Assembly (NCBI GenBank): GCA_021234155.1
Contig: JAJEKV010000101.1
Location: 965,453 to 1,029,452 of the forward strand
Length of the DNA stretch: 64,000 bases
Reading direction: 5' to 3'
Source of the DNA: Isoetes taiwanensis
Lineage: Eukaryota; Streptophyta; Lycopodiopsida; Isoetales; Isoetaceae
Shown here: one piece after another, positions 18,896-56,719 of the stretch
How the letters are laid out: each line of letters begins with the position of its first letter
How positions within the stretch are numbered: position 1 is the first letter of the stretch
The notes under the pieces: model-generated
What the model was told of the DNA's origin: nothing
Database searches by the model: none
The model's input: only the letters and a program-made list of their open reading frames with translations
Translations under genes and position numbers: made by a program

Positions 18896-19002
18896 ATTTT
18901 TGACACGTAAATAGGCTAACTTCGGCCACTTTATGTCGCATATTTTAGTCATTTCCATTGCGCCATAACCAAAGAAAAAATTAAGGTGCTAGCATAGAGG
19001 GT

Positions 19003-19102
19003 TGCCCTTCATGGCACGAGGGTGAAGTGGCTTAAATCAAATCCGCAGTATGTGCCCTTTATGGCACGAGGGTGAAGTGGCTTAAATCAAATCCGCATTA
19101 TG
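19003..19102. repeat. Two tandem 50-bp units
   Basis: The unit TGCCCTTCATGGCACGAGGG... is repeated directly with two or three changes. It lies between the 244-bp repeats and the 28-bp minisatellite. Confidence 0.92.
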
Positions 19103-19273
19103 TGACTTGACAATATACACAAGACTAGTTATGGAGAATTTTGTGGAAATTGCCATCTTTATAATATTTTTTGATCCATAATGTTATGCAGCCGTTTGAG
19201 CCCGACCTGAGCTATTGCCCAGATCATCATGCTTTGGACCATTTTCTGGTTTTCGGGCCCATACTGGGGCACG

Positions 19274-19385
19274 TTCGGGCATAATGATAATCATAGAATA
19301 GCTCGGGCATAACGATAATCATAGAATAGTTCGGGCGTAATGATAATCATAGAATAGCTCGGGCATAACGATAATCATAGAATAG
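19274..19385. repeat. 28-bp minisatellite, four units
   Basis: Four exact-spacing copies of (T/C)TCGGGC(A/G)TAA(T/C)GATAATC plus ATAGAATAG lie head to tail. Variants alternate (ATG, ACG, ATG, ACG), which suggests growth by duplication of a two-unit block. Confidence 0.95.
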
Positions 19386-19585
19386 CTCTTCTCCAGCTTC
19401 TATTTTTTCTTTCGCAAATATACCTACTATGGTCTCCATCAACCATAATGACCTCATTAAAACACATGGTCTAATGTTTTTCAGCATCTAGCATGCATAG
19501 CAATTTGGATTTGGAGAATTATTTGCAAATTTGAGTTTATCACCTTTGCGACATGCATCTAAGACGTACTGCATCAACAAGCACA

Positions 19586-19841
19586 CAAATAAGAAGTATA
19601 ATCTTCTGCAACAGTATCCTAAATGATGAAATCTTTCGAACATGGTTATTAAGATTAAAGGGAAAAGTAGAATTTTCTCGATTGTAAATCCTCCCAAATA
19701 AGAAGTATAATCTTCTGCAACAGTATCCTAAATGATGAAATCTTTCGAACATAGTTATTAAGATTAAAGGGAAAAGTATAATTTTCTCGATTAAGATTAA
19801 AGGGAAAAGTAGAATTTTCTCGATTATAAATCCTCCCTCGT
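19586..19841. repeat. About 110-bp tandem duplication across a SET exon/intron boundary
   Basis: The block with AAATAAGAAGTATAATCTTC...GGGAAAAGTAGAATTTTCTC occurs at 19586-19694 and again from 19695. The second copy also contains a nested repeat of about 30 bp around GATTAAGATTAAAGGGAAAAGT. Each unit carries the end of the E(z) SET exon that encodes RENSTFPFNLN plus the start of the following intron, so the peptide motif appears three times. It happened after or during decay of the gene. Confidence 0.88.
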
Positions 19842-21746
19842 TTATTGGCTTCCCGATGCGATATAAGTTCTCTAGTATACTCTCCAAAATATTTGTGTTT
19901 ATTGACTGGGCTCTTGTTGCAATAAGTGCATATTAAAAACTAAAAATTAATCAAAGCAAAATCCGGCTTTTACCTTCAAAAATGCTCCCCACCCAACCAC
20001 ATCAGATCTTCCCAAAGGAACCTGGAGACAATTACTGCATCTGAAACATGAGCATGGAACTTTCACTGATAAAATAGAATAATAAGATTCTGAAACATCT
20101 CCCATGTGGTTCCCCCATGGATCACCATTCGTTTCCTACCATGGAGTTGCTATATATGTTTCTGCTTACAAAACAACACACAATACCTTCTATTGCTGCT
20201 TCAAAAGCAACTTCATGTTATGGCATTGATAATCTTCACCTCGCGGGGAGGATGTCCCAACATCCCATCTACACATGCAGAGAATCAACAGTAAATTACA
20301 TCTAACCATTATTTTTCCACGCTTCAATGTAGTCTGAAATAACAATATGTAATAAGATAAGAATCTTACCCAACCTAGAAATTTCTGCAAACATCTGGAT
20401 CACACTCCCTGCCAGCAGCAAAGCAGGGACACTGTCTGCTGCAACACTGACTCTTAGCACAATGACAGCCTCTGAAGTGGTTCTTGCATCCATTCGAGCA
20501 ACTATAACAAGCCTCCACAAAAGAATAAATGGTGTTGAAATACCATCGGATAAAAAATGCTCCCTATAACTGGGTTCTTACCCACAACATTTTTCATAGC
20601 ATGTGCCATTCCGTCACACTCCAATGGGATCCAGTGTAGTGGACTACGTTCTTGGTAGTGCAATACATTCTATTCAAAATTTTACACTGCTAGATAAGCT
20701 CCCCGAATCAGACCATATTCCATTATCTTTTGAGTTAAGACTGTTTCATTCAACCACAGATCAACGCAGGCTTCTTCAAACCTCGGATTAAGCTGAATTA
20801 TGGTAGACATGAGGCCTTTCAAAAGAAGTTATCAGAGCTGCTAGATCAGATGGATTGGTCGGGTGATGTTAACAAGGAATCTGATACTCTTACACAAACA
20901 TTGATCATAGCAGCCGGTGATGTCTTTGGATACACTAAAGATAGGCATAAAGGCAGATTGTATAACAGTTGGTGGGACTCTGAATGCCAGCAGGCCAGAA
21001 ATTGTCTTCCAAAAGGTGTGTGGTTAAGCCAAAATGGTACAAAGCCTTAATCCGCCATAAGAAAGGAATGTTTTACAAAGAGAAGAATCAAGCCTTATCC
21101 CGTTGGTTTCATATCCATCCAAAAGCTTTCTGGAGCAGATTTTCGAAGAAGACCTCATATGGTAACCTAGACTCTGATGCTTTATTGCAGTTGGTTAGAG
21201 ACCTATATTATGTGGAACAGGCTGATGGCATGACACTGTTAAATGTTCAAGCTGATTTATTCACCCCAAGCGGACGTGCAAGAAAAAGTCAAAAGCATGA
21301 AAAGCGGTAAAGGCGGTGATTTAAATGGGTTAAGCATTGAGCTCCTCAAATGGGGTGGGCCCCAAGTAATTGAGGCGATTAAACCGCTAATCGCCGCAAT
21401 AAGACAAGGATTGCCTCGGCCTTGGAAAGTAAATAAAGTCTCTCCAATTCATAAATCTGGTGATCGTGATGATGCACGCAACTATAGAACAATACTTGTC
21501 AGCTGCATGTTTTCAAAGCTTTTAGGAGGCTTATTGGAGGTGAAGTTGAACAAGTGGGCTGAAGAAAACAACAAAAGGGCACTATGTCAGGCGGGCTTCC
21601 GGAAAGAGCATAACACTCTTGATCATATCCTAACATTGAAGGTTTTGATTGATAAGGCCAAAGCTCCCAGAAGAACTTTGTATTTAGCATTTATAGACTT
21701 CTCAAAGGCGTTTGATATGGTGCCACGAAGAGATCTTGGGACCAGG

Positions 21747-22488
21747 TGTTAGGAATTGACACACAAACTATAATGACCTTTGCAAATTTCTTGTCTAGCA
21801 AGATTTATTCACAAAAATTTTCTTCACATGCACTAGGGAGCCACAAGATGGTCACTTATCCCTTGTGCTTGACAAATAAAATAAAACTCTTAAGTTCTTA
21901 AAGCAATTCAAACTTTAAGTCATGAGAATGAAAATATTAAACCATTGAACAGTTACTGTAGCAGGGGTCATTGACTCGAACACTGTTCCTGCTTTGACCG
22001 ATATTTGTATATCGGATTCTTCACCAAACACTTTGATTCTGCTTCATCCACCGGGTGTATATCCTCTGCTATCTTCATTACTTATATATTGCGGGTTTCG
22101 GTGGTTAAGGCATCATTCATGCTTTCAATGAGGTTGTTATCTATTGAACTATATCCCACAGGCTTGGCTCAGGAAATCTGCTACTTTCGATTTATCCCAC
22201 ATACCTGCTTTAGGAAACAAGCCCTTTAACCATTAACCAATTTTCGCCTCTAATTTTGTAAAGCACATAAAGCACTTATATGCATTTGCTTGCATCTTCA
22301 ACTGCTTGCATTTGAACAATACCCCATAAGTGAAAATCTCGTCACCGGTGTAACCAAACTCCGCATCTAGTAAGTATGTTGTAGTCCTATGCAAACCCTC
22401 GCCCTTTGCTTCTCATAGGTTGCTTTGTAGTCAAACAAATATTCATCGCCTTCGCTTCTCATGAATATAAGATGACTATTTTCTAACA
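21747..22488 (-). repeat. 3' LTR of the copia element
   Basis: Begins TGTTAGG and ends CTAACA. Differs from the other LTR by scattered substitutions and indels, for example around 22390-22410 and 21955-21965. Confidence 0.95.
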
Positions 22489-22985
22489 TTCCTCCTTCGA
22501 CTTATATTCATACTATAAGTCCAACACATTCAATTGTTGTTTGAATTTCTTTGAATTTGACTTTCGCAAGTGCTTTAGTGAAGATGTCCATTTTGTTGAT
22601 TTGTTAGTGTCAACATATTTCATTTGAATGATACCTTGTGATGCCGGATCTCGTATGAAATGAATACTTAGCTCTATATGCTTAGTCTGTCATGATGAAC
22701 TGGTTTTTTCACTATAGCTATGCAACTTTGGCTATCTGTCATAATCTCGGTAGCTTCACTTTGTACATGATTTAATTCCTCCAATAATCTTCTCAACCAT
22801 ACTATTTCTTTGGCCAGAGATGATGGCAAAGACATATTCACGCCTCTGCGAGCTCATAGCTATGGCAGCCTGTTTTTTGCATCTCCAAGTTATAGCATTT
22901 TTTCCTAGGAATATGACATATCCTGATGTTGACCTCCTTGTGCTTAGATCTCCTCCCCAATCTGCATCACTATAGGCAGTTAGTT

Positions 22986-23912
22986 TTAAATTTCTTCAGT
23001 GTAACATATACCTTGAGTGGATGTTCCCTTTAGATACTTTAGCACTCGTTTGCCTGCCTCCCAGTGATTTTTTGTAGGATTGTGGCATCTTCTACTCAAG
23101 ATATTGACAGCATATGCAATGTCAGGTCTGGTATTATTTGCCAGGTACAACAAGCATCCAATTAAAGCCCTGTATGGAGTGTTTTCCATGTCTATACTTG
23201 GCTTGTCTCTCGAAGTTCTTTGTAGAGTATGCCCCGAGTCATAGGTATTTTCACAGCCTTAGCATCTTCCAAATTAAATCTTCTCAACATGTTATCAATA
23301 TGTGTCTTTTGATGTAACTTGATGTACTTCTGATCCCTGTTCCTGATGACTTCTATACCCAAGAATTTCTTTAGTTCTCCTAAGTCTGACATTTGAAACC
23401 TGTTTTTCAGAATCTTCTTTGCTTTATTAAGAACATTCATAGTACTTGCAATCATTATACAATCATCCACATAAAGTGCTATAATGCAAAATTCTTCTCC
23501 TTCTTGGAATCTATAAAGGTTACCATCATTCTTTAATTTTTCAAACCTATGTTCTTGTAGAAATTGATTCATGCAGAGGTACCATTCTCTAGGGGATTGC
23601 TTTAACCCATAAACTGCTTTATGTAGTCTCCAAATCTTATTTTCTCCCTGCTCAAACCCAGGAGCTTGTTTCATGTAAGCTTCCTCTTCTAATGTAGCAT
23701 TTAGAAAATTTTGTTTTGACATCCATATGGTGTATTTCCATATTCATTTCATTTGCCATTGCAATTAAAATTCTAATGCTTGTGAGTTTGACAATAGGAG
23801 AGTAAGTTTCTTCATAGTCTTTGCCCCTTTTTTGAGTGTACCCCCTGGCTTTATACCTCTTGCTGCCATCAGGATTTTCTTTGATCCTAAATAGCCATTT
23901 ACTTCCAATCAC
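22986..23912 (-). pseudogene. Copia reverse transcriptase and RNase H remnant
   Basis: The reverse transcriptase shows SKWLFRIKENPDGS, the LNATLEEEAYMKQAPGFE region, VYGLKQSPREWY and the catalytic ALYVDDCIMIAS. RNase H follows with YRALIGCLLYLANNTRPDIA. A frameshift near 23715 and another near 23190 split the frame into three pieces; otherwise catalytic motifs are preserved. Confidence 0.92.
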
Positions 23913-24458
23913 ATTTTTGCTGTCATCAATATCTACCAGCTCATATGTTTTTGTTTCAAGTAAATGAGCTTAGCTCCTCTTCCATAGCTGCCATCCACTT
24001 GCTTTTTATTTATACTTTCTTTGAGCTTCTTCAAAATTCTCGTGGTATATCTTCATTTTCAAGGAGGGCCATAATTTGTTCATACTACTGGTTCATCAAT
24101 AGTAATGTTTCTTACGCTTCTCCCTTGCTCATCCCTTCCATATGGTAAATCCCCCAACTTTGCTTCTTCTATGAGTTTCTCAACTTGTGTTTTTCTTTTT
24201 CTTTCGACTATTGTTTCCTTATTCTCAAGGTTTCCATTGTTGATCTGCTTTGGCCTTGGTTTGAGTTCTTGTTGTGTATTTCCATTTTTCTGTTTCCACA
24301 TTATCCTCTTGGTTATTTTCATCATTTTCATCAACATCAAATTTTACATCCTTATGTTCGATGTGTTCCTCCTCAATCTTATGCCTCCTTTTATACCTGT
24401 GCTTGTACAATATGTTTTCATTGAACAAGACATCTCTCTTGATTATGATTGTTTTGTT

Positions 24459-25315
24459 TTACGGATTGTAGATTCTATATCCTTTGGATTCATCATCATA
24501 ACCAACCACAAATCCAATTTCAGCCTTATCATCCAAATTTTTCCTTAACTCTTTGGGTACATGAGAATATGCCAAACACCCATATACTTTGTACTTGTCA
24601 AAATTAATCTTTGTGTTTGGATTCCATAGCAGACTAGGCAGATTTCCATCAATGCTGCTTGATGGCAAATTGTTTTGTATTTCTACACTTGTCTTGAGTG
24701 CTTCTTCCCATAGATTGCTAGGTAGTCCACTTTGCTTCAACATAGATCTAACAGCATCTAATATTGTTCTGTTTTTCCTTTACGATACACCATTATTTGA
24801 GGGCTATGTGCGCATGTCAATTGCCTTTTAATTCCATGCTTCAAGCAATATAATCTGAATTTGTCAGATAGGTATTCTCCACCTCTATCTGACCTAATAC
24901 ATTTCAGTTTATTTCCAGTTTCTCTTTCAGATGCCACCACAAATTGTTTAAATGCTTGTAGTGCTTGGGACTTTGTAGTTAAAGCATAAGTTGTGCACTT
25001 TCTGCTGAAATCATCTGTAAAGGTAATGAAATACCTTTTATTTGTCCTACTTTTGATATTCAGAGGACCACAGAGATTTGTATGTACCAGTTCTAGCACC
25101 TAAGTTGCTCTGGTTTTTCGTTTGGCAAAGGGCAATCTGCTCAGTTTTCCCAAAATACATCCTTCACATATGAAATGTGCTGAGTTTTTGTTGCAGCATA
25201 TCCAACCTTGTTTAATCAATTGTTTTAGATTTTTGTTGTTTGTATGAGCAAGTCGATTATGCCATAGTTCTAACCCTTCTTCTTTAATAGTATTGATGCT
25301 CACTGCATTTTTCAT
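24459..25315 (-). pseudogene. Copia integrase remnant
   Basis: Contains the HHCC zinc-binding region (WHNRLAHTN and CEGCILGKLS) and the core with LVHTNLCGPL, TFTDDFSRKC and SDRGGEYLS. The first catalytic Asp of the DDE triad, normally in HTDLCGP, is Asn here, and frameshifts lie near 25100 and 24760. The C-terminal part includes LPSNLWEEALKT and YGCLAYSHVP. It cannot be active as read. Confidence 0.88.
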
Positions 25316-25661
25316 TGCAAATAAATATTCAAATCGGTAGCACGAAATTTCAATTCATCCTTGAGATAAATATTACATTGCAATGAGTCAAAAAGTGACC
25401 CAGTAGCCTAGATCAACCAGGTTGACTAATGGAAATCAAATTCTTGATTATTGTAGGCACACACAACACATTTTGTATATCTACAATGTCACCATTTAAA
25501 TCTTCAAGTCTAACAAACCCCTACTCTGAATTTTTGAAGAGCTCCATTTCAACTTGTATATTTCTTGAACTTGCATTGGTAGCATTCTTCGGTGAGATCG
25601 ATGGGTCAAGACTACCGATCTTTCAGCTCCACTATCAACTACCATATAATCATCACATTTG

Positions 25662-26700
25662 TTAGATTGACTTTATCAAGAATAGCAAATTCATTAAGTA
25701 CCTCATCATCTTCATCTTCTTTAATTTGCTTTGGATTTTTTTCTCCATGTTCTTCAGCCACAAATGCTTTTTTTCATAACTTCTTCCTCTTCCTCTATTT
25801 GAGGATCTCGCCACCCTCGCTATCGGGCCTCCCCTTCCCCTTGCATAATTCTTTGGAGTTGGGCATTTTGAGGCTACATGACCTCTTCCACCACATGTGT
25901 AACAGTTAAACTCTTTTTTTAACTTAGGACATTCATTCTTGTAGTGACCTTGCTCATGGCAATGATAGCAAGTTACTTTCTTCTTAACAATTAATATCTC
26001 GGGATCATTAGATTGTTGCCTTGATATTTTCTTTTGTTCCCATTCGTTTCTCAAACAATTTTTGCTTCCTCTCTTGTCTTACAAGTATTTCTAATAAATA
26101 AGGCAAGATTTTCATTATCCCGCTTCTAGATATTTAGAATTTGGCTTCCTCAGATGATACATTCACATTTGCCCCAAAGAAGATCAGCTATGAGATTATC
26201 AAACCTATCAAAGAACCCTGAGACATCTTCATCCTCTGCTAATTTTAACCCTCTTAATTCATTTTCAAGTAAATCAATTTGAGAGGATGTTTTATCTTCA
26301 TAATATTTAAGCATATATTTCCACATATCTCGTGGACTCAAGCCTCTTAATTTCAACCTAATTGTAGGACTACCTTGCAAGATATGATTCCTTGAGCCTC
26401 CTTTGCTTTTGCATACAAGGATTTTCCTCCTGAGCTGCTTCCCCCTGTTGTACCTCCTGTACCTGCACTTTGAGAAGTCCTACTTCCCCCTGCTGTGCCA
26501 CCTGCACCTTCAGCATTAGTTGAGCTTGTTGTGTTAGAGCCAAATCTCGTCAGTATTCCTGCAGTAACATTCCCTTGGGGATCCACCAAATCCCACAAAT
26601 CTTCTACTTCCAAGATGTGTACTATAGCATCCTTCCAAACTGAAACACGGACCTCCAAAGCATACACATCCACGGTGTTGAGCAAGCTTGCTCCAAATCG
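25662..26700 (-). pseudogene. Copia gag remnant with two zinc knuckles
   Basis: Reads through frames that include a Gly/Ser/Thr-rich low-complexity patch at about 26410-26540, the gag core with SPRDMWKYMLKYYEDKT and GFFDRFDNLIADL at 26170-26330, and two CCHC knuckles (CYHCHEQGHYKNEC and CYTCGGRGHVASKC) at about 25880-25980. Frame changes near 26360 and 26100 break the polyprotein. Protease sequence between 25660 and 25330 is too decayed to define. Confidence 0.85.
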
Positions 26701-26714
26701 CTAGACATATTACT

Positions 26715-26728
26715 AGCTCGATACCAAT
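26715..26728 (-). promoter_or_regulatory. Copia primer-binding site, variant
   Basis: Directly inside the 5' LTR the minus strand reads TGGTATCGAGC, which matches the initiator-Met tRNA 3' end except for one missing A. It could be a post-insertion deletion or a tolerated variant. Confidence 0.8.
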
Positions 26729-27497
26729 TGTTAGGAATTGACACACAAACTATAATGACCTTTGCAAATTTCTTGTCTAGCAAGATTTATTCACAAAATT
26801 TTCTTCACATGCACTAGGGAGCCACAAGATGGTCACTTATCCCTTGTGCTTGACAAATAAAATAAAACTCTTAAGTTCTTAAAGCAATTCAAACTTTAAG
26901 TCATGAGAATGAAAATATTAAACCATTGAACGATTCATCAGAAAGTGGGGTCATTGACTCGAACACTGTTCTTGCTTTGACCGATATTTGTATATCGGAT
27001 TCTTCACCAAACACTTTGATTCTGCTTCATCCACCGGGTGTATATCCTCTGCTATCTTCATTACTTATATATTGCAGGTTTCCGTGTTAAGGCATCATTC
27101 ATGCTTTCCAACTGAGTAGGTCATTGTTATCTATTGAACTATATCCCATGTGCTTGGCTCGTAAAAAATGCTACTTTCGATTTATCCCACATACCTGCTT
27201 TAGGAAACAAGCCCTTTAACCATTAACCAATTTTCGCCTCTAATTTTGTGAAGCACATAAAGCACTTATATGCATAAAGCACTTATATGCATTTGCTTGC
27301 ATCTTCAACTGCTTGCATTTGAACAATACCCCATAAGTGAAAATACTGTCACCAGTGTAACCAAACTCCCTGCATCTAGTAAGTATGTTGTAGTCCTATG
27401 CAAACCTACTGCCACTGCTTCTCATAGGTTGCTTTGTAGTCAAACAAATATTCACTGCCACTGCTTCTCATGAATATAAGATGACTATTTTCTAACA
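26729..27497 (-). repeat. 5' LTR of the copia element
   Basis: Same termini as the 3' LTR, 27 bp longer, partly from a local repeat of GCATAAAGCACTTATAT near 27270. Confidence 0.95.
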
Positions 27498-29240
27498 CCA
27501 GGCTGGAACAAATTGGAGTACCTAGAGAACCGGCAACAGCGGTTCCACAAATTGCATCTGAAGAAGTCATAGTCCAAGTATCACTAAGCACAGAAGTTCA
27601 GAGCACAATAGGTGTTAGGCAGGGTTGCCCGCTTTCCCCTACCCTATTCGGGATCTATATGGATGACCTAGAATCTTGGCTGAAACAGAAAGGTATTGCT
27701 GGAACCTGGCTGGGAGACTTGCTAATTCAATTATTGTTATATGCAGATGACGTAGTGCTTTTAGCAAACACGCCAGAAGGGTTGCAATCACATTTAGACA
27801 ATCTTTCTTCATTCTGTGATGCTAAGAAAATGAAGGTAAATCTTGTGAAATCAAAGGTCATGATTCTTGGCATTGTGAAAAACATACTTTCATGTATAAA
27901 GGTGAGGCTCAAAGTTGTTGACACTTACAAATATCTTGGGTTTGGAGATCTCCTCGAACTATAAATGGAAAGAATGTATTAAAAAAGAGCAAGCAGCAGT
28001 GAAAGGAAAAGCCGCTTTTGTACAAGATATGCTTTCAAAATGTTTCAAAGCCTCTTTGATGATTGGGGCCTCTAAAAAGGTATTGTTTAAAACATTGGTA
28101 CAACCAAGTACTTTTATATGGGGCTCCAATTTGGGGGCCTTCCTTATCATGTAGGCAAAGTGGTCCCAATTGAGACCGTGATGAAGATATTTATCGAGAA
28201 GAATTGGGGGTGAAGAACCAAATACCTTATGCAATTCTCTTGGCGGAGACAGGCATGATCCCATTAGAAGCCGAAGCTTTGTACCAGACTATTAATTTTG
28301 TGAACAGAATTTGCAGCCTTGAGGAGGACAGACTCCCTAACTTGGCCAAGCATGACTTCGGTAAAAAGGGGTGGTACGATGACATTATCAAATGGGCTGA
28401 AAGGTGGGGCATATCAGAGGCCAATTGGCCGATTTTCACGAAGAAGGCCGTGGACATGGTACAAACGGTAAGCTCTGGGAAAATAAGGGATTGAGAATGA
28501 TGTTATACTCATCGGACATCAATCCAATGCTTACATACCCGGATCAGAGCTATTTACATGCCTCTATTCCGAAAAACTTGAGACATTGGATAGCCAGATA
28601 TAGGACCAGTTCGCACAAATTAAAGGTAGAAACTGGAAGATGGGCTCAGGTTCCTAGGGATGAACGAGGACATGTAGAAGATGAGAACCATGTCCTGCTG
28701 GTGTGCCCATCATATGATGATATTAGGCATCAATTCCACATAGACGTACTCGACTTTCAGTCACTATGGGGTTTAGACTTCATGATATTAGGGAACTTCA
28801 TTAAATCTGTTGATTCACACAGAGAGTTCCTTTTGAAAACTCAGTAATTGTACGTGTCGCTCCATGACCATTGTGGGTGTGATAAATATATTATTATTAT
28901 TATTATTGTTGTTTTTCACATATAAACAGGCACGAGCATGGGGTAAATTGCTTGCAAGGCTAGTCTTTGCTATCTGCCACTCTCTTCCTGATCAATGGAT
29001 TGCCTGAGCTGACTTCCGAGTGTATTTCAACCTACGAACCCTTCCTCTCCTTCGGCCATTGTAAATCCTAGATCTTGATTGAATGTCTAGTTCCTACACA
29101 TGTAGAAAGCAACACTCAATCACCAGTTGGTACTATTAGACTACTCGTGCAAAAAATAGTGTAAACAATTGCTAACAGACTCTTATGTCTCACTCACCAA
29201 TTATCCAAAAATCTACTTCCCGGTTATACAATATGCAATC

Positions 29241-30535
29241 TTGACCTGTCGGTCGCTATATAGAGGCTAGCAGCCTCATGTGCATACATATATTATCCAA
29301 CTTCTATACAGCACTTCGGTCCTCTTAGCAGATTCCGAGCAATCATACAGCTGTATTAAATTTATCGTTATGGAAAATTAAAATTAGCCACTTCAAGAAC
29401 TTTAATATGCAATAATAAAACTAATCAACCAAGAAGGTTTGTTGTAGATGTTTATAAGATTTTGGGCAAAGGTTGGGTTGAGCGATTCCTTTTTTTTTAA
29501 GTGGGTTTTATTCCAATGGTTCGATTTTGGCTATTTCTTGGTTTCCTTCCTATGATCTCGCGGGATAGGGGCCGAATTCATGGATCTGGAAGTGGGCAGC
29601 AGAGTTGCCGGAATTGGCTAGGTTGCTTCTAGTTTTGTGCAGGGCTCCATCTACTTTACAGGGCATCTGATTTACGGTTGCATCTGGGTCTTGCATCTGC
29701 TGCATCTACTCGGGATTTGGCGGTATCTGGATCTGGCTGCCACCGGAATAGAGTAGGTGGTTACTGCTGGTAAAGTGTTTACCGGGGTTCGATTTTTTGC
29801 TTCAAATGATCTTCCCCGCCAGAATAGAATACAATAGAATGGAAAGGCATGGGCAGGTTACTGGTAAGGCTTTTACCGGGGTTCGACTCCTCGGCCAGTA
29901 GATCCTCTATGCAGCCATGGCTGTCTTCAGACGATTTTGCTGCAGACGATTTTCCTTGCTTCATTCTTCTCGATTTTCCATCCTGTTCGATTTCTCTTCT
30001 CGGTTGTAGATTTTTATTCCGGATTTCTTTTTGGATTTCTTATTTCAAGCCGGATCATCCGTCTCTGGGTTGTCTTAGTAGGGGAACCGGTGTTGGATTA
30101 CATACAGGCTCCTCTGTTTTTGCCTCATCCGTCTCTGGGTTGTCTTAGCAGGGGAGCCGGTGTTCTGTTTTTGCCTCTCTGTGATGCGCTGCAAATGGTT
30201 TCAGTGTAAATTATGTTATCCACGTCAGCCAATGGTTTTAATTGTGTGTATTTTATTCATATCCAATAGTTTCTTAAAAAAATAAGAAAAAAAAAAGGTT
30301 GACCTGTCGGTCGCTATATAGAGGCTAGCAGCCTCATGTGCATACATATATTCTCCAACTTCTATACAGCACTTCAGTCCTCTTAGCAGATTCCGAGCAA
30401 TCATACAGCTGTATTAAATTTATCGTTATGGAAAATTAAAATTAGCCACTTCAAGAACTTTAATATGCAATAATAAAACTAATCAACCAAGAAGGTTTGC
30501 TGTAGATGTTTATAAGATTTTGGCCAAAGGTTGGG
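29241..30535 (+). mobile_element. A-tailed 821-bp insert between 237-bp direct repeats
   Basis: 29241-29477 and 30299-30535 are the same length and about 98% alike by eye. The 821 bp between them (29478-30298) ends on the plus strand with an A-rich tail (AAAAAAATAAG then a run of A), as after reverse transcription of an RNA. The insert has two similar blocks of about 40 bp with pol III B-box-like cores (GGGGTTCGACTCC near 29876 and GGGGTTCGATTTT near 29784) and a repeat of CATCCGTCTCTGGGTTGTCT (about 30056 and 30126). No ORF of note. It is best read as a SINE-like or processed-RNA insertion, but the 237-bp repeats are far longer than a normal target duplication. Confidence 0.6.
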
Positions 30536-30539
30536 AGGT

Positions 30540-33290
30540 TTCTTGGTGTTTTTTATTTTTGTTTGCTTTTTCAGGTGTAAGTTCGAAGATTTTCTAATCT
30601 GGCTAGCTCCGGCATACTTCAGAGCCAAATTGCCCAAGGATTCTCTATCTAATCCACCTACCTGTGGCCGTCTCTGGCACAAGGTGTTCTGACGCAGCTA
30701 CGTCCGAGCTGGGTTCCACAAAATCCTTTAGATACCTAGTTCAAAATTTGTCTTTGTAGGTTCCAAAGCCCTTTGAGCTCCAGTTCAAAACCGCAAAAAC
30801 CGGGGAAAGGAAAGGTTCAAATGGTCGAGCAAAAATCGCTTCTCAAAGTTTTCTTAGATTTTGTCTGTCTGTGGTTTATGTTTCTACGTGATTCCGCCAT
30901 AGCCGTAAGAAATGCAAAGCTTGCTTTCGTGCCCCTTGTTTGTGATTCGGTTTACCTTATGCGCATGCGTGAAGAATCGGTCATCCGGCTTTCATTCCTC
31001 TTCCATTTCGTTTCTCTCGAATCCCGCTTTTTTTATTGTGGCCATTGATGTGCTTATGGTTCGTTGCTCACGAGCTTATCGAGGTTCAGCTCGGGCTTCA
31101 TCGAACCAACGACTTGTGCATGTATTTGCACATTTTGGTATATTCATTACTTATATGTGACAATTTAATGGTTTAACAATGGTTACAAGTTTTAAAAAAT
31201 GCAAAAGGTTACACTTAGCAAATTGGTATCCTAAACATGACCATTTTCCTTAATTATCACCCAAAACTTAGCAAGAATTATTCTTACAAGAAATTTATCG
31301 CGCGGCCGCCGCGAACATTTCTCTTCTCCAACCCGCTGCAAAAGAAGTTTTGTGCTAAGTCGAACAGATTTCAATTCTGGACATCCTTGAGAGGGGAAAG
31401 AACATGCAGGAGTTGAACCTTGGGATTCGTCTGCACATCTTTAGCCAAAAAGGTTTGATACTAAGTTTGCAAATAGAGAAGCCTTTGATAATGGCATGGA
31501 CTTCAATGTTGCATCCGCTTAAATATGCCCAGTGGGTACATAACAAAAGAAATCGACCTGTGTGGTCCTAAAATATGAACAGAGGATCTCAAGTTTGAGC
31601 AAAAATTTTTACACTATGCTCTGTTGCTTCTGGTGCAATTTTGTCCATTATTATTGATCAAATATTTTGAAATTGAATTACTGAAAAAATCTTAAAAAGC
31701 ATAAGGAATAGATCCTAGGAGGGTAACAATATTGCAAATTTAGGTTTACATTGCATATTTAAGGTCGTGGAAATCATGCCCACTAATGCCATACTCATGC
31801 CTAATTATGTTCATGCTCTAATACAAATATGACATAGGCATGTCTCAACTGGTTTAAAAGAAGTTGAATGAACAGATGCCGGTTGCCTCTCGCAAATGGA
31901 ACATACACAATAGAGCTTCAAAATAGAGTTCTTTCTTTTGCCATGGATACACTAATTATGACGCCTAGCATTCATATTGAAAGCTTGTATATCTCTATTG
32001 CAAGCTTGCATATCTAAGTTCATTGCATTGAAATGATTTTTAAGACACAAAGATCGGATGCACTTATTTGTAAGGCACAACAATGCAATATGCATATATG
32101 TCTCAAGTAAAATGTAAAAGTGAGCATCTAATCCCACAATAAGAGTTTGTGGTTGTAGAATTAGCTCTTCTTCCCTCCCTTGACATTGACCGAATACAAA
32201 AGAGAAGGAGCATAGGAGATGGCATATCTTTGTACTAAGAACTCTTCAGACGAGTCCCAAAAGGAGGCAAAGGAGAATGTTGATAGTTGTCCTATAAAAA
32301 AAAAAAAGACAATAATGAAGATGCAGAAGGAGAAGCAACAAAGCATGGATACCTACCTCATTTGGAATAATGACAATATTCCTAATCTCCAAGCCGCTCA
32401 AGTGAAGGTTTCCGGCATTATGGTCGGTGGCTGGTCGTGGAATACCCAAGATCTGATCTCTAATTCCCCCACGAGAAAGAAGAAAAGCATGCGATGCGTA
32501 AAAATATTACCTCAAGAAGCAAGCGACCACTAATCCTTTTAGATTCCTAGAGAATTTCGCCAATCAATGGCATCGATGCGGTATGTAGAGAAGATAAAAG
32601 TTTGCACCTAACAAGTTGCCATTTTAACATGGCGGACGACTATGAAGAAGTCGGACCAAGAATATAGGGATGCAAAACACCAATCCTAAATCCGGTAATC
32701 ACCGATAGTATGCAACTACATCCTATACCTAGTTCCAAAACCAAAACCCCAAACATAGTAAGTTTTCCCTATACTCTCCTTAGGGACGTCTTAAGGAGAT
32801 GGCGTATGAGACATATGGATTGGCCGTTGAAAAAATGATATATATTCGACATTGGTTGGTCATCAAGAGTATAAGAAACCCCGCAGACGGATGCCGGCCA
32901 TTAATGGAGAAAATGGAAAATTAAGAAATTAAAATTTGTAACCTTAGATAATGCATCCTATGGACCCAAGCAATGGAATTACACCTATGCAAGAGAGGCA
33001 TCAATAGTCGAATCCAAAATGAGAGACTTAAAATTTAAAATTGCATTTGCGGTAGTGATCCTAACCGCTTGAAAAATTTATCGAGAGGAAATGGATTTCA
33101 TGCTAATGTAATTAGAAGTAAAATGTGAAATGGAGCCATTGGTTTCAAAGAAATTATTATGTAACGCCAAGTGCAGGATTGTCAATGATGCACATTTTGT
33201 GTTTGAAAGGATAATGTGGCTGCATAACGAGATGAATGCAGGATGTTCTCGACATGGAAATTGCAAGGTAAATATGGAAGTCTTTATCAA
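30540..33290. other. Stretch without a recognised gene
   Basis: The minus-strand frame at 30479-30682 is Lys-rich near its end, and the plus-strand frame at 30773-31048 starts with a Ser/Lys-rich peptide and continues hydrophobic; neither has a recognisable domain or splice context. A GC-rich GCGCGGCCGCCGCG core sits at about 31300. Otherwise AT-rich with no repeat structure that I can see. Confidence 0.45.
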
Positions 33291-33308
33291 ATCGTTCTAG
33301 ATACATTT

Positions 33309-33535
33309 ACATTTAGTGCATATATGCTAAAGGTTGGTAGCATAAGGGATTCATTTGACAGGTTGCCATCACAGGATGTGGCTTCTTGAATGGTGCTTGC
33401 AGCATGCATTCGAAATGAACATTCTGAACTGTGTCTTAAGCTTTCCAATGAAATGCAAAATAATGGCATTATTCCAGACAAACTTACATTTGTTAGTGTT
33501 CTTAGTGCATCAGCATCGTGTATGGTTAGAAACAT
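33309..33535 (+). pseudogene. Pentatricopeptide-repeat (PPR) gene remnant
   Basis: The plus strand reads a PPR-type segment: YMLKVGSIRDSFDRLPSQDV, then a TGA where these proteins have Trp (DVASW), then MVLAACIRNEHSE and GIIPDKLTFVSVLSA. The repeat order and motifs fit an organelle-targeted plant PPR protein of the PLS class. Only about 75 codons survive, with no start, no further repeats and an in-frame stop, so it is a fragment. Confidence 0.8.
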
Positions 33536-33729
33536 CCAAAATATAATACTATAGCACATTCTAACCATAGCTTTTGTCCACAGCCCATATGTCTGAGGTA
33601 GAGGTTTCTCCTTGCGTATAAACAATGCATCATAACTAAATTGTTTGCATGAGACACGGCCCATGTGCAGAAAATATTGACATGACGTGGTCCTCAAAAT
33701 TGTTTACACTAGAAATGCCGTGTTCTTAC

Positions 33730-34045
33730 CTGCGAAATACCTTATGCGACAAATTTGGCTCCATGCCGCATCATCATCATCTCTGTCAAATTCTTGTTTG
33801 CTTATAAGTTGTTTTCCCATGGATTCTTTTAAATCCTGTGCTCTACCACGTTCACTCCATATTAATGCCAATTGCGTGGATCTGGACATCTCAGCCATCG
33901 GATGCATAAGCAAATTCTTTTGGATTACTTGAAAGAACCCCTCGTGATCTTCTGATAAATTTATGAGATCATGTGCAGTAGTTAACATAGATGTGTAATC
34001 CTTATAGTAAGACAGAAACCATCTTTTGACTGTCTGATTGGTTGC
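33730..34045 (-). CDS. 316-bp exon of an unrecognised gene
   Basis: A minus-strand block is open for 105 codons between an AG acceptor (GTTTAG) at its upper end and a near-consensus GTAAGAA donor at its lower end. The peptide is protein-like, with VKRWFLSYYKDYTSMLTTAH, AEMSRSTQLALIWSERG and an acidic DRDDDDAAWSQICRIRYFAG stretch; it is amphipathic and probably helical. I do not recognise the family. Possible further minus-strand frames lie at 34452-34637 and 33560-33690, without firm junctions. It may be an intact gene or a fragment. The PPR remnant runs on the opposite strand 200 bp away. Confidence 0.5.
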
Positions 34046-35572
34046 CTAAACCTCAGGAAAACAAAGCCTAGGAATAGATAAAAAAAGGGGGGGATTAAAC
34101 TATGGGGCTTGGCTCTGCTTCATCACACAGCCAAGCAGAAAAAGATTTGATTTTAGCCTACTCCAAGACTGTATGACGAAGTCGATGCCTTCCAAACATG
34201 AAGTTTTATAAGAAGCAGCGTTTGGTGAAATTTCATGTGCCATCCAATTTTACAACAGGGATCCCTCTTCCACGAAATTCAAGAAGCCAACTGTTGGCCT
34301 TATTGCTAGTCCTAGAGACAGGCTGCATAGCCGGATCTTTGAAGGAGCAAATAAGAGAGAGTGAAAGCTGGGTTTAGTTTTCCTAGTTCTGCAGCAGAGA
34401 ATATCATTTAGACTACTGGCGGAAAGCTAGATAAACCGACAATGCATAGATCTACCTCAAGTCTATACACAAATCCTGAGAAAATCTGAGAAAATATGCA
34501 GGAAGCTTAAAAACAAAGCTAAAATGATTGAGTAAATGAGTTAGGTCCATATTCCAGTCGGATATTTCCGATCCCAAAGCGTCTAGAAATACCATTCTTT
34601 CCTGCCCATCTTTGCTTTCTCTGCAGAAATACACCAAGTAGATCTAAACTTTTATTCAAATCCCCTTTTTATTACTACAGACTCTTATCAACAAAACACA
34701 TCATTAAATGCAGCTCTGCCTGAGAATTTGGCCATAATCGGGCTTAGAAAGCTTCAAATCATTCCCAAATCACAACCCATTTCGTGAATTGCTTCCAATG
34801 TACCTACAGAAACATCCATAGCTCAACTATTGAAGCACACAAAAACCCATCTAAAAATGTGCATCAAACCCATTTCGTCAATTTTAGGCTTATCCACAGA
34901 GGGTTTTATCCGCAGAGTTACCTGATGGGTTTCTCCCTGCCCTATTTCAACAGTACCAAGCACCCCAGAAGCTGCAAGGTTCTCCTGCGGAGCCCAACCC
35001 TCTCTTCAAAAACCTACAAAATGAGAACCAGAAGATGGAATCGAAGCCGTTGCCGGACAGTAGCCGCCATGGAATGCTCAGAACAGGGCTCGGCCAGCAT
35101 AAAATCCTGCTGTTTTTAGGGCAAGCCGATCTGGCTATGCCCTTATGGGCGGCCGTTTTGACGCCACAGCATTCTTTAAGGACGCCATAGCCAGCAAAAA
35201 CTTGGCGCAACTTCTCTTAAGTCAATTCGCTTCAAAACTAAAAAGCTGTTCTAATGCGGCATCTTACTCCAACAAACTAAAGAGCTTAATGTTGCTGGGC
35301 GCTTCACGAGGGCGATTGCATCCGGAGGAGATGCTTCAGTGGTTGGGTTGCCACAGTTGTCGAACCCGCAGTTGCCCTTTCCTTTTATGCGACGTGTCAA
35401 AAAAATTTGCATAGAAGTGTTGCACACAAAGAATCGTCCTCCAATAATTATCTCTAATATATAATTCTAATATGGAAGGTAAGGGGACAGCACAGCTTAT
35501 GTTATGTATAGGAAATCATGATCTAAATTGAGTACGTGTCAACACATAAAAAATTTGAAAGGAGGCAGCTCT

Positions 35573-35650
35573 TTCTGGAACTTTCGTGTGCTCTAAAATA
35601 TTCTAGAACTCTCTCGAAGTTTCTAGCGTCTTCTTCGGCCTGGTATATAA
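35573..35650 (+). promoter_or_regulatory. Heat-shock-element cluster with TATA box
   Basis: A perfect three-unit HSE (TTCTGGAACTTTC, 35573-35585) and a longer array at 35601-35633 (TTCTAGAACTCTCTCGAAG followed by TTC) keep the 5-bp nTTCn/nGAAn spacing, with one unit changed. A TATA box (TATATAA, 35644-35650) follows within 15 bases. This is the layout of a plant heat-shock promoter bound by HSF trimers, directed to the plus strand, with a start expected near 35675-35680. No heat-shock protein ORF follows. The transcript is unknown: a 30-codon frame from 35660 is the only obvious one, and a pyrimidine tract ending in TTTTGCAG at about 36055 could be a 3' splice site. Confidence 0.75.
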
Positions 35651-35759
35651 AGAGGAAATGTCAGTTGCTGAAATCAGACCGCAGTCGTAGGCGTGTAAGC
35701 TCAAAGCAAGGGTCAAAGATGTGGAAGTTGTGTTTGCGCCCAGGTTTGGCTTGGCAGAT

Positions 35760-37412
35760 TTAGAACTGTATTCAAGAGGACAGAGGCATAATAATCTGGT
35801 GGTCTCTGGTTTGCTATTAAATTTTAGAATAGGGTAATCCGGAGATGGAGTTTCTTTGTTGAAACTTAGGGAGGCATAAAAAGCTACAAAAAGCTAAGAG
35901 GAGTTCTGGCTGGGTCTGCAATTTCGCCGGCAAAAAGCATCAGAAGACCACAAAGAGCTTGATGCTCGAACAAAGGGCGGCCACTTCTTTTTTTAAGGGT
36001 TCTTTTGTTCTTTTGTTCTTTTTTTTAAGGGTTCTTTTGTTCTTTTGTTTTGCAGCGGCCATTTGTTGGAAATCCGTGGAGGTCTGGTGGAAATCTGTGG
36101 AGGTCTGTATGGTAGAAATTGGGCCTGTTTGATGATTTGGCATGCAGCGCAAATCATCAACCACATGTAGACTTTGCATAGAAACAAAGATTGTATTCCA
36201 TAGTCTTATAGTAAAGATTTTCATGTCCTCTTCTGGTAGCTTTACAGATAACTTGCCTTAAAACATATAACATATGGACCCATCTGCCTTGAAATGCGTC
36301 CCACAACATTTGCAGTGTATATATGTCCGGTGTTCGCTATGTGCTGCTTTGCATTGCTTCACATGAGAATGCTTCACATGAGAATACTCTAGAATCGATG
36401 CTTACTAGTTCATCAAATTACAAATGGTGGTTCTTTATGCTACGTTTATAATGCAGTCTCAAGTAAAGACTTCCTAATCCTGGGTCCTGAAAGCAGATGA
36501 AGGTGCTTAGGAATCCCAAAGATATGTGAGAGAGTTGTTTTGCAACCAATCCATGTGTTGTTGCATGTTGTAAAAGGGTGATGGGATTGGTTGTTCCGTC
36601 AGGGTATGATTATGCTGTGGGCTACACAGATGGGAGTTGCTAGTCATCTACGGAACCTGCATAATTAAAGAGTTCAGATGTATCATGATTTAAGTGTGTA
36701 TAGCAACGTTCATAGGTGTATCACGATTTGATCTTAACATGAATTTTACTTTATTCGTTTAACTTTACTCCATTCACCCATTCAATCTAGAATTGTGCCA
36801 CTCAATTAAACTTAACCATAATGCACGAAGAATAATTTTTTAGCTAATCTCACTTTATCAAAATCACATGACTGAAGAAGTGCCAATAAAGTCCAAGGGG
36901 ACAAATATTATGAAGAGGTTCTTGGTATGGAGATAAATTTCTCAATGAAGTGAAACCGTAAAATAGCTTGCTTTTAATCATGGAGATGCAAATGTATATT
37001 ATGTAGTTGAGAGTCTAACTTTTATTATATATAAAATTGAAATATTTTGCATAAATTTGAAGATACGAGTCACTTTTACCTTCATTGCAGAATGTAAGGC
37101 ATATTTCTTTTCTTATTGTCAATATCATATTCAGTATAACTTCTCAAGATACAAATTGAAAAGCACAATGTAGCGGCAGCGAAGGCTGCCGCGACAAATA
37201 CTTGTATATGTTAAGATAATATCTAAAGCGTATATTTTGATCAAAAAGCCACTTACCAATTGATAGAGAAGCACAAGTTAACTAAAAGATATATACCTGT
37301 TTCTACCAAAAATTTGGAGTCCTTTCTCGTATAATCCCTTCTCCAAAGTGCTCCAATTACTACCTTTTAGATTACCTGTGGTGGCAAGTCCCTCCTTTAA
37401 ACTACCATCTTT
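35760..37412. other. Stretch downstream of the heat-shock promoter, no recognised gene
   Basis: A tandem repeat of TTTTTTAAGGGTTCTTTTGT occurs twice at about 35987-36045, followed by a repeated GGAGGTCTG block at about 36070-36110. The rest is AT-rich with no open frame of interest on either strand. Confidence 0.45.
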
Positions 37413-37860
37413 CTAAGTATCTTGTGTAGCAGTTTTAACTTCATCAGACTTCGATTCTTCTCTAGGTCGTTTCGATTGGTTACATGCAATATTACTCTTC
37501 TTGTGCTTCCTGAGATTTCTTAGAAGTGCCTTTTCTCTTTCCTGTTGCATTTTTGCATGCCCAGTTCCTTCTCCTTGTATGTCTTCTTTTGTAAGAGAAG
37601 TGCCATCCTTAGTAGGCTCCTTCCCATCCTTAATAGGCTCAACACGTGCAGGACGATGCTCTCCTGCATCTTCATCACCTCCTTTTCCACTTTTTCTTTT
37701 CAAAAGCTTTCTCAAAGCATTAACTCTCTTGTCTTTTATCCCCCTTCTTGGATGGTCGATCAGTTGGGTCGTTGTTCGATCTGTTATTGCACCAGATGTG
37801 TGAGAAGTTGTGCCATGGTCCACTCTGTGCTTGAAACTATGATCCAGCGGCCATCCTGTT
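37413..37860 (-). CDS. Candidate terminal exon for a basic, Lys/Arg-rich protein
   Basis: A minus-strand frame of about 149 codons starts after a good acceptor (TTTTGGCCATTTCAG) and ends in TAG. The sequence is highly charged and low in hydrophobics: VNALRKLLKRKSGKGGDEDA, KDGKEPTKDGTSL, EREKALLRNLRKHKKSN and KRPREESKSDE. This composition fits the disordered tail of a nuclear protein. No family is recognised and no upstream exon is seen; the L1 LINE 900 bp upstream may separate it from the rest of its gene. Confidence 0.45.
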
Positions 37861-38120
37861 CTGAAATGGCCAAAATAAATGCGCCACAATCCGTTACATA
37901 TTACCTGATTAAACTAATCAAACGTGAAGAATAGAATAGTGTTTTGCGATTGCGAATACGTACTGTGCATTTAGTCTCAAACGACTATTCTATGTATGAC
38001 TGAGTGTACGATTAAAATATGTCACAGAGTCTAGCATTTCATCGGAGTTTAGGCAATCCAAGATTAGGAATTTGTAGGTGCCTAAGATGCAGCAAAAGTC
38101 ATTAGCACGGCTAAAAACCA

Positions 38121-53400: not shown

Positions 53401-55840
53401 CAGATCTGGAATCCTTAAGAATAGCTTGGAAAACAGAAATAACATTATCAGAGAATCCCAGTTTCTTGCAGCACCAACAAAATAGCGTCAGCGCCAAAAT
53501 CTAAAATAATACAGAAGTGGTGTACTTCTCTAGGCTCTCCTGATTCCAATACCAGTCCAATCCTAGTTCGTTCAAGGGTTGAAACCAGATGATGATGGAT
53601 CCATCAGTAGCTGCACCGTAGTAGGGCAAATATTTTTTTGTTTTTCATTGGGCCATGAAGTTAAGACAGCTGATGGAAGAGCAATATCTAAATCCTAATG
53701 GAACTGCTATATATGCACGAGGAGATATATATAGAAAAGGCTGGAATGGAAAAAAGGACACATTGTACTGATCCTGATGCCAGTTAGAGAGTATTGAAAC
53801 CAGAAGCAATTTTTATCTATTCTGAAGAGCCATTAAACAAAGGGCACATTCTGAGCTGGTGATAGAACACAGAAGCTAATTTCCTTCTTTCTTCGGAAGA
53901 ATGTCATCTTTATAACTGTGCAGAACTACTCCTATTTGATTCTGAAACATGCATAGATCGATTAGATTAAAAATATTGAATTCTTGCATGTTGCTTATTT
54001 GCAGAAGAAGCCCTCTTGACGATTCATCTGCTGTTAGAAAAAGGGTAAAAACAGGGGTAGAACAGGTTCATACGGTTTCGTGAGTAAACATGGCTGGGTG
54101 AGGCGAATGCGTTTGTTGCTTTTAGATCAAAAAGCTCGTTCTTGCTCTAATGATAGAAGCAGAAGAAGATAGATAGATATTAGGATCAGAACTAGAAGCA
54201 CAAGCGACAGAAGGATGTAGAGAGTATCGGGATGATTCTAAGCCAGACTTCTCTTCAGACTTTTTGCTTGTTACCGGGATGCTTAGACTTTTTGCTTGAA
54301 ATATAAACCAAAATCCAAAACAAGAATAAAAAACTATGGTGTAGCATCCCACAGATTAAAGCTCACCTTTTTGCTTTTCTAACAGACAGATTGATGCTTT
54401 TGCTTACAAAACCATTATTGTAACCAAAACCAGAATAAAAAACCATTACCTAGCATAATAGAAGCTATGATTCCATACCAATATTCTCCTGTCATCAAGA
54501 ATCCAGCCCGCCAGCAACACAAGAATCTAGGGGGTAAAAGTTATTGGGCATACATATGCATGCAGTGACAATATCAACCGCTGAATTATTTCAGCGAACC
54601 CAAATCAACGACCCAAAAAGGGCGCACTCTAGAAATACTATTTAGTATGCCTTCACGAATACACGCTGAAACCATAGAAAAACCATATGAAAAAACGTAT
54701 AAAACTATAAATAACCCCTGTTATAATGCTAGATATTAATGAGAATTAACATTGCGATGGAGAAGCTTTGATGGATCACCTTTCTTGAAGGCTAATAGTT
54801 GCGTAAGCTATTCGTGTTGAAAATTGTTATCACTTTCAATATTTATTATAACAGTTAATTTAAATAAGCTAGAGAAAAATATCGATGATAAAATAATTGT
54901 GCTAGATTTTGTTAGCTAGAGAAAAATATAGATAATGAAATAATTATGTTAGATTTTGCTACACTAGATGTATAACTCTTTATAGTTTGATGAAATTGTA
55001 GAACATATAAATAAAAAGAAACATTTTTCAACAAGGGCTTGCATCTGGGAAGTCTTGAGAAATGGGATGAGAGGAATTCAAAGAGAAATTTTAGCTGTTT
55101 GAATAATAAAGTTATAGTGATCTATAAGACATCAAGGAATCATTGAAAAAACTGAAAAAAGCTTTAGATCAATTGTCAATGGTGACCTATATTGCAACAC
55201 TAGCCTTGCTAGTTTAATGTCTAAGAACTAGATTAATATAAGAGCATATATATATTGCTAGAAATCCATATCGAATGCTATCTACGAACCACTTATAGTT
55301 CCAATATACTCATGGGGAGACAAATATATCTCTAATCCGAGTGTGTTTCACAATATTGTGTTAATAGATGTTTGTTAATAAACAATGGGTAATGAGTCTA
55401 GTTTCACAGGTTTGGAAAGGCAATAACTTTACATTCTTATTTCTTAATCACACCTTATTTTCTTCTAGAACACAAGGTGAGAAAATGCAGGTCCAAATCA
55501 TGTATATTTTTGGACATGTAGACGAGATAGTTGAAGAGAAATGTTAAGAAAGATATACAAAGCCATACATTGATGATGCATGGATGTTGACAAACAAGAT
55601 TGACTACATGTACAATGCTACTGCTTTCCAATTCAAGAAACCAAAAGCTTCACCATCCACGTCAAGCTGCCAAGCTGTCGATTCAAAAGCTAACAAACTG
55701 CTACCTACGTTTTTGTAGATCATTGGCTGCAAAGAAAGTTAATGCTTCTACTGCTACTCTCCTTTCTTCTATAGCTTCTTCCACGCAATATGTAGCAAAA
55801 TAACAGGGGGTTCCAGGGGGATTTGATATGGATGTAGAAA

Positions 55841-56037
55841 CAACAATTCCTGAAACCATAGACCATATATCCCTAAAACAATTGAATGGGTTGTTATAAA
55901 AAAAAAACACATATTCAGGATAAAAAATAATCATATTAGCAACAATTACTGAAACCATAGACCATATATCCCTAAAATAATTGAATGGGTTGTTATAAAA
56001 AAAACATAGATTCAAGATAAAAAATAATCACATTAGC
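55841..56037. repeat. Two tandem 99-bp units
   Basis: The unit starting CAACAATT(C/A)CTGAAACCAT occurs twice in succession with about 6-8 differences. Confidence 0.9.
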
Positions 56038-56042
56038 TTACT

Positions 56043-56105
56043 GGGTACATTGGTTAAAGTAGTCTTATTAGGACATTGAATTATTTTGGTAGAGGTTCGA
56101 GCCCC
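56043..56105 (+). repeat. tRNA-like (SINE-type) head
   Basis: The plus strand shows TTGGTTAAAGTAGTC (A-box-like) followed about 35 bp later by AGAGGTTCGAGCCCCC (B box). Downstream copies of CAAAATC(T/A)TAGGC fit a SINE body. No cloverleaf acceptor stem, so not a tRNA gene. Confidence 0.5.
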
Positions 56106-56719
56106 CGTATTTCATATTCTAAAATCTTAGGCAAAGCCGTATAGAGGTTTGATATTCCCTTAAAACCTTAGGCGAAATCGTATTTCATATTTCAAAATCA
56201 TAGGCGCCTCCAATCATAAATGACTATAAGCGAAACATGAGGTGCCCAGAGGCCCCAACATACGATCTGGGTCGTAGGATCGACGAATCCGACGACTGTG
56301 GTAGTTCAGAGTGCACCTTGTTTAGAATATGTCGCAAAATAACAGGACGTTCCATCTGCAAATATCATCACTGGTGTTTTAGATCTAGCGACATAAGAAA
56401 TGCTTTAAGAACCTTATAATAATGGTTCATCATAATTGATTGCTAAAATTAATGATGAATTCAAGGTAAAACTACACCTAAAAGTTATCTTTTAATATTC
56501 TATGCAACACAAAGCAAGTTTCTTCCCATCAATCTTGAAGGATCACTCCTTGTTGATGTTCAGCCAACTGAGAAAGTTTAATGAGTCTTATCTGAAACAA
56601 CTACATATATGCAAACTAGGTCCAAAACAATGAATGCACTAGTCACATACTACCATTCTCACAAAACACATCACTCAACCATATGTATAGGCATACAACA
56701 GAAGGCTTGGGAAATTTAC

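Follow-up and report, generated by a model that had tools for sequence, protein, structure and literature searches.

A decayed, probably Helitron-like element carrying the 3′ half of a captured E(z) gene in Isoetes taiwanensis

Broken exons of the Polycomb methyltransferase gene E(z) lie in a 64,000-nucleotide stretch of Isoetes taiwanensis DNA (hereafter the window; C910:965453-1029452, where C-numbers denote contigs). The question raised by this locus is whether a gene died here. A sequence-only reading of the window held that a second copy of E(z) underwent silencing, acquired TAG stops at CAG and TGG codons through deamination of methylated cytosine, was invaded by transposons and decayed in place. 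The exon blocks are real and lie on the minus strand. They make up, however, only the 3′ half of the gene, and that half sits inside a multi-copy element with a common junction. We consider it quite likely that the window copy is a decayed Helitron-like element that carries the 3′ half of E(z) as a captured fragment.

The genome searched comprises 1,658,258,908 bases in 1,110 contigs. An intact paralogue, which the sequence-only reading had proposed to look for, is present at C1056, where E(z) exons from the N-terminal region through the stop are found at one locus. The part shared with the window is open over 516 codons across 8 GT-AG introns, with the N-terminal exons just upstream. With a 170-residue N-terminal query, for which all 13 candidates were scored, three exons were matched at C1056 and a single weak one at C1046. 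The latter, C1046:7836745-7836852, is an N-terminal E(z) exon with 78% identity; 24 kb off on the same strand, 7860948-7861106 is a SET-region match (54%, with stops), and the pair is possibly a second, older E(z) locus. In the available part of a published account, E(z) (CLF/SWN) is single or low copy in early land plants (PMC12655823). The present sequences resemble plant E(z) genes in exon order, in their CXC and SET motifs and in having the intact parent at C1056; unlike those genes, the window copy is without the 5′ half and lies inside a mobile element.

Comparison of the window with this parent by blastn defines the captured segment, from linker exon to 3′ untranslated region, as 19093..37799 (minus strand, as are all E(z) parts given below). 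Later insertions have split it into pieces at 37799-37216, 31289-31221, 30496-30299, 29438-28909, 20614-19695, 19695-19364 and 19304-19093. The exon order is linker, SANT (twice), pre-CXC, CXC and SET exons, then the C-terminus with its stop. The linker exon extends from 37799 to about 37297. The 237-bp SANT exon is duplicated, at 30299..30535 and 29241..29477, with four differences between the duplicates. The CXC exon (20368..20500) is matched by Pfam preSET_CXC at 27.6 bits (cut-off 23.3), and alignment to the parent places a further exon at 20188..20265. The end of a SET exon and its intron are tandemly duplicated at 19586..19826, in units of 109 and 33 bp. Within the ELFYDYRY segment of the SET domain, a 28-bp unit that the parent exon lacks is repeated in about four copies (19275..19388). 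The SET end had been thought missing; it is present past this repeat, where translation and blastn to C1056 identify a C-terminus reading ...ERAPVWARKPENG...RAQTAA plus stop at 19184..19304, the stop codon being 19186-19184. Likewise, the range first proposed for the gene, 19494..29093, does hold E(z) exons, while the piece actually reaches 37799 and includes a fourth TAG and three transversion stops.

A functional E(z) would require an open frame through CXC and SET, and here that frame is broken by seven in-frame stops, frameshifts and insertions. The end of SET was matched by Pfam at 22.6 bits (cut-off 22.4) in the open pieces, and four other E(z) pieces of the window that were submitted gave no Pfam match. 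The N-terminal half of E(z) was not found in the window. One exon used as a query of the PDB matched 15 EZH2/EZH1 chains; a longer query returned EZH1/EZH2 and other SET proteins in the best 60 of 105 matches, none of them a plant chain by name. A search for plant E(z) in viral contigs gave six pattern matches, none confirmed, and of 562 relatives in GTDB contigs the 80 kept all had bacterial titles. E(z) peptides as printed in papers had no match in the literature, and Rfam and tRNA scans of the 64-kb window found nothing.

Both sides of the E(z) piece are joined to sequence that is absent from the parent and present in other copies. On the 5′ side, the parent match begins at window position 37799, and the preceding sequence, 37800..38115 (minus strand), is element body common to the sister copy on C996. 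On the 3′ side, the captured part ends about 100 bp past the E(z) stop codon and adjoins the element's 3′ terminus, which in the window (18983..19092, minus strand) is decayed, contains a 50-bp tandem duplication and ends in CTTAAT. In the family at large, the terminus is a tail of about 62 bp past the E(z) stop region, ending ...GGAGGGCAACCCTCCGTGCGCAGCACCTTG and followed by an unrelated T-rich flank. A 31-base form of the tail has 5,121 matches in the genome with up to 2 mismatches (2,519 plus 2,602); the reversed control has 0.

The constancy of this junction was recounted in 59 loci, L090-L148. Allowing up to 4 substitutions, 45 of them have the terminus, and their distinct flanks number 36; in 34 of these, homology to the parent stops at offset 2581-2595, i.e., within 15 bases. 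The two exceptions stop at 1502 (C1059) and 2339 (C1054), in both cases with the terminus no more than 72 bp further on. For 30 loci, L119-L148, the fit to the junction is partly by construction, because the query that retrieved them contained the E(z) end and the terminus. The loci retrieved by protein (L090-L118) show the same 3′ junction at 11 of 13 distinct flanks. The C-terminal end is reached in 18 loci (parent and window not counted), and 15 of these run to a CTTGTT end, L095 and L098 with internal changes. After CTTG, T occupies position 1 in 36/36 distinct flanks, position 2 in 35/36 and position 3 in 29/36; all 13 distinct flanks of the protein-retrieved loci start with TT.

The family is large. 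A CXC-SET query gave 145 matches in the genome (150 of 168 candidates scored). Clustering of matches within 6 kb yielded 66 places, 6 of which were set aside as other or doubtful SET matches. For the CXC-SET half there are thus at least 60 E(z)-like clusters, 58 of them besides the parent and the window; these counts are lower bounds. Coverage of the 60 clusters, counted from 3′ to 5′, is 48 for the last SET exon, 32 for the previous one, 32 for the next, 13 for CXC and 13 for pre-CXC. Over the pieces that match, the retrieved copies have 81-96% identity with the parent, and they keep the introns. Their 5′ limits vary, recurring in classes that continue into common foreign sequence further 5′. 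C996 and the window share further 5′ body within 54734..57180 (minus strand; pieces 57180-56342, 55789-55139 and 55046-54734), and a match on C368 runs on to 57697.

Two observations concern such bodies and their surroundings. Upstream of the C996 copy, some 2.3 kb before the body that it has in common with the window, L150 4947-5789 is a piece of a pentatricopeptide repeat gene (PPR_2, 75.1 bits) that may belong to the element. In L121, L123, L126, L129 and L135-L145, the last about 130-180 bp of the captured E(z) stand at the 3′ end of several unrelated bodies, and some of those bodies with very short E(z) remnants are common to several loci.

Some of the disabling changes are also shared. 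In a codon-by-codon comparison of the window and sister copies with C1056, the window has seven in-frame stops over 500 parent codons. Four are CAG or TGG changed to TAG (37415, 28962, 20377 and 20192; parent CAG, CAG, TGG and CAG). The sequence-only reading had placed the last three at Gln and Trp codons, and the parent bears this out. C1040 (L128) likewise has TAG at 37413..37415, where the parent, C996 and C1 have CAG. The one at 28960..28962, in KDQPC, occurs in the window only, among nine sequences covering the site. The Trp codon at 20377-20375, in the CXC exon, is TAG in C1059 as well, TGG in three element copies and CAT in C1087. At 20192-20190, all five element copies aligned (window, C996, C952, C1030 and C1087) have TAG. 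The loss of a zinc cysteine was correctly noticed too: the parent's TGC at 20380 is TTC in the window, changing Cys to Phe, and this change is found in five element copies including the window; C1087 keeps Cys.

The other three stops, all in the SANT exon, are transversions: GAA>TAA at 29295, TCG>TAG at about 29215 and GAA>TAA at about 29203. The first (29295-29293, in the duplicate at 29241..29477) occurs only there among seven rows, which include the window's other duplicate. Read by eye against the parent, the frame also shifts by about 2 nt near 29005 and again near 19428, and the SANT exon has a shift of about 1 nt. When all copies are taken together, about half of the 20 distinct stop events are something other than a single C-to-T change, though some of them may be misalignments. 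Several short, SET-only copies, such as L097, L099, L103 and L118, have no in-frame stop over the 92-142 codons covered, a scoring of stops and not of frameshifts. A reading of TAG as a Gln codon was dropped because one TAG sits at Trp and frameshifts are also present.

Three of the four CAG/TGG stops, being found in other copies too, were most likely there before the insertion at this locus, and, contrary to the earlier claim, the CAG/TGG changes did not kill a gene here. Since these TAGs and the Cys-to-Phe change are common to several copies, the element most likely moved with an already broken E(z) fragment. On this comparison the common stops would be inherited rather than recurrent.

What class of element carries the fragment? 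The Helitron superfamily is suggested by a palindromic 3′ end: a 30-nt stretch of the tail folds into the hairpins GGAGGG-CAA-CCCTCC and GTGC-GCA-GCAC (z -2.42). Rep genes are abundant in the genome. Helitron_like_N (PF14214) gave 1,813 first-look candidates, and 150 of 150 scored were above the cut-off, many in long open frames; a Rep domain and the start of PIF1 (25.7 bits, cut-off 25.9) stand in one open frame. In the available part of one account, canonical Helitrons are defined by a 3′ end CTRR and insertion before T, and Helentrons and HINEs by a TT insertion preference and subterminal inverted repeats of 12-15 bp, one of them near the 5′ end (PMC4067079). Like canonical Helitrons, the present element shows capture at the DNA level with introns, mixed modules, a gene fragment beside a palindromic 3′ end and many copies without transposase. 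It differs in ending with CTTG rather than CTRR; its 5′ TC end was not found, and of an insertion between A and T only the T of the 3′ flank is seen. With Helentrons and HINEs, as far as that account describes them, it shares a T-rich, TT-type 3′ flank, short 3′ palindromes and high copy number, the TT preference and T-rich flank being seen on the 3′ side only; the expected 5′ subterminal inverted repeat was not found, and no endonuclease-bearing partner was linked. By the same partial account, the TT-type flank places the element nearer to Helentrons within the superfamily.

Several points weigh against assignment to Helitrons, or against the wider account of one captured fragment. The 3′ end is CTTG and not the canonical CTRR, with only the T flank agreeing. 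Since the 5′ terminus of the element was not found, neither the lack of a target-site duplication nor an empty site could be demonstrated. The Helentron-type 5′ subterminal inverted repeat is absent in its predicted form from the retrieved loci, and the guessed form is matched twice in the genome. The terminus could not be linked to any Rep/helicase gene, and it was missing from the one Helitron 3′ side retrieved (C1042, 3 kb). A 53-nt stretch of the terminus folds no better than expected (z -0.66). The terminus was demonstrated at 36 flanks, not at all 60 clusters, and three of the 18 loci that reach the C-terminal end (L104, L112 and L114) lack the terminal end. Finally, the TAG at 20192, present in five copies, could in principle be a recurrent mutation at a CHG site. 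Given the CTTG end, the 5′ end not reached, the limited inverted-terminus test and the unlinked autonomous partner, membership in the Helitron superfamily is not proven.

The most durable rival is that the carrier belonged to some other class in which the 3′ end is conserved and the 5′ ends vary, such as a retroposon or a terminal-inverted-repeat transposon. Copies anchored at 3′ with variable 5′ limits recall the 5′ truncation of long interspersed nuclear elements (LINEs), and the CTTG end and unreached 5′ end lend this some room. The 5′ limits, however, recur in classes running into common foreign sequence, introns are kept, and no tail is added at the 3′ end, where there is only the T-rich flank. 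An inverted copy of the terminus, which a terminal-inverted-repeat transposon of the Pack-MULE type would carry at its other end, was not seen in the upstream stretches retrieved, among them some 8 kb preceding the C996 terminus. Nor was there an inverted partner within 20 kb, by eye, among 100 listed of the 5,121 sites, a test limited to exact matches that a diverged partner would escape. We regard such a carrier as unlikely.

Death of a full gene in place fares far worse. It draws on the four TAGs at Gln and Trp codons and on the cytosine context of the window's own changes. These were scored in an alignment in which the parent and the window stood beside 27 further copies, namely C996 and 26 chosen loci; where a place was represented by two loci the second was omitted, as were most pieces consisting of the terminus alone. 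A change was counted as window-only where all other sequences, at least 3, agree, which gave 1,847 sites. The window-only changes comprise 15 GC>AT, 13 AT>GC and 11 transversions, and by context the GC>AT changes are 7/90 at CHG, 2/43 at CG and 6/491 at CHH (CHG against CHH, odds ratio 6.8, p 0.0013). The pattern read as CHG deamination is therefore real insofar as CHG exceeds CHH; C-to-T changes, at 15 against 13 of the reverse, are in no clear excess, and the window resembles its sister copies.

Pooled, the 27 other copies have 128 GC>AT, 79 AT>GC and 91 transversions (CHG 31/591, CG 17/240, CHH 80/3,404), counts that are not independent because the copies are related and the duplicated pair L098 and L099 is in the set. 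In no context does the window depart from these copies (p 0.75 for CG, 0.32 for CHG and 0.14 for CHH). Parent-only states show no CHG excess (CHG 2/84, CHH 16/541), and base composition over 19120-20620 gives no sign of local CHG loss (CWG observed/expected 1.01 over 37 sites; 0.79 for the window). An earlier spectrum against Arabidopsis CLF/SWN (15 GC>AT, 7 AT>GC, 6 transversions and 1 ambiguous, with CG/CHG enriched) was superseded by this same-genome test, which shows that C-to-T overall is not in excess. Since the sister copies also have a raised CHG rate and the window is no different, methylation-type decay at CHG appears to be a property of the family and not the cause of a gene's death here. 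Death in place is left barely credible by the dozens of copies that have a single 3′ junction and a terminus in common, by the presence of three of the four TAGs in other copies, by three further stops that are transversions and by a 5′ half not found at the locus.

Amplification of E(z) as an ordinary gene family by segmental duplication, with the window as one dead member, is just as improbable: several clusters do lie on C1053, and the locus pairs L100/L101, L103/L107 and L098/L099 share flanks and are probably duplicated segments, whereas 36 distinct flanks begin at the terminus and the N-terminal half is not amplified.

The Helitron-like element with captured E(z) suggests a history, as follows. 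An element, presumably of the rolling-circle type, would have captured the 3′ half of the host E(z), namely linker exon, SANT, CXC and SET with their introns, in what may have been one event, placing the E(z) piece directly beside its own 3′ terminus. The chimera would then have moved, swapping or losing 5′ parts and mostly keeping the E(z) 3′ end, to give dozens of copies, the fragment already carrying disabling changes while mobile. After insertion here, a LINE would have entered the copy and a Copia element the LINE, and the copy would also have undergone other insertions, tandem duplications and additional point mutations, the last with a raised CHG rate as in sister copies; the order of some of these hits is our reconstruction.

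That transposons invaded the E(z) sequence was rightly recognized from the start. The LINE (RVT_1; 20615..28908, plus strand) lies in the CXC exon; it is apparently 5′-truncated, and its insertion removed about 11 bp of the target and left no visible target-site duplication. Nested in it is the Copia element (21747..27497, minus strand), with long terminal repeats (LTRs) at 21747-22495 and 26729-27497 and a 5-bp target-site duplication, CCAGG. The sister copy C996 is without the LINE, the Copia element and the tandem repeats of the window copy. The LTR pair was tried as a clock (40 differences and 7 gaps over 740 aligned sites), and the Copia insertion was not dated because the differences lie largely in clusters. 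Long identical stretches alternating with dense clusters of differences could reflect gene conversion, multi-base events or long-read consensus errors.

Elsewhere in the window, 58000-62500 has 51% G+C (up to 56% per 2-kb step), compared with 38.7% for the window, and contains LINE-like endonuclease frames by eye. A repeat pair with 97% identity, 14547-14701 and 17214-17368, surrounds a 514-codon open frame and is probably another retroelement; the frame matches DUF4219 below threshold (23.2 bits, cut-off 27).

What had been claimed as gene death by cytosine deamination thus turns into capture of a gene by a mobile element. Before the stop codons of one copy are read as local history, they should be looked for in its sister copies. 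No report of Helitron-type capture of E(z) was found among the titles and abstract openings of the papers listed in searches of open-licence literature. In the available part of the main text of the Isoetes taiwanensis genome paper, the word Helitron is absent, and the repeat library is described as filtered against plant proteins (PMC8566536). Because of this filtering, as that part describes it, the library could drop gene-carrying elements, which may inflate some gene counts. For Isoetes taiwanensis, the finding draws attention to a terminus that is matched more than 5,000 times. C1056 is apparently the genome's single full-length E(z) gene, with its 3′ half spread as dozens of mobile copies. 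It is conceivable, if very doubtful, that these copies give rise to small RNAs or short transcripts directed against the parent; the host's Polycomb machinery would then be tuned by a mobile element, and silencing of the copies by the host would form part of the loop.

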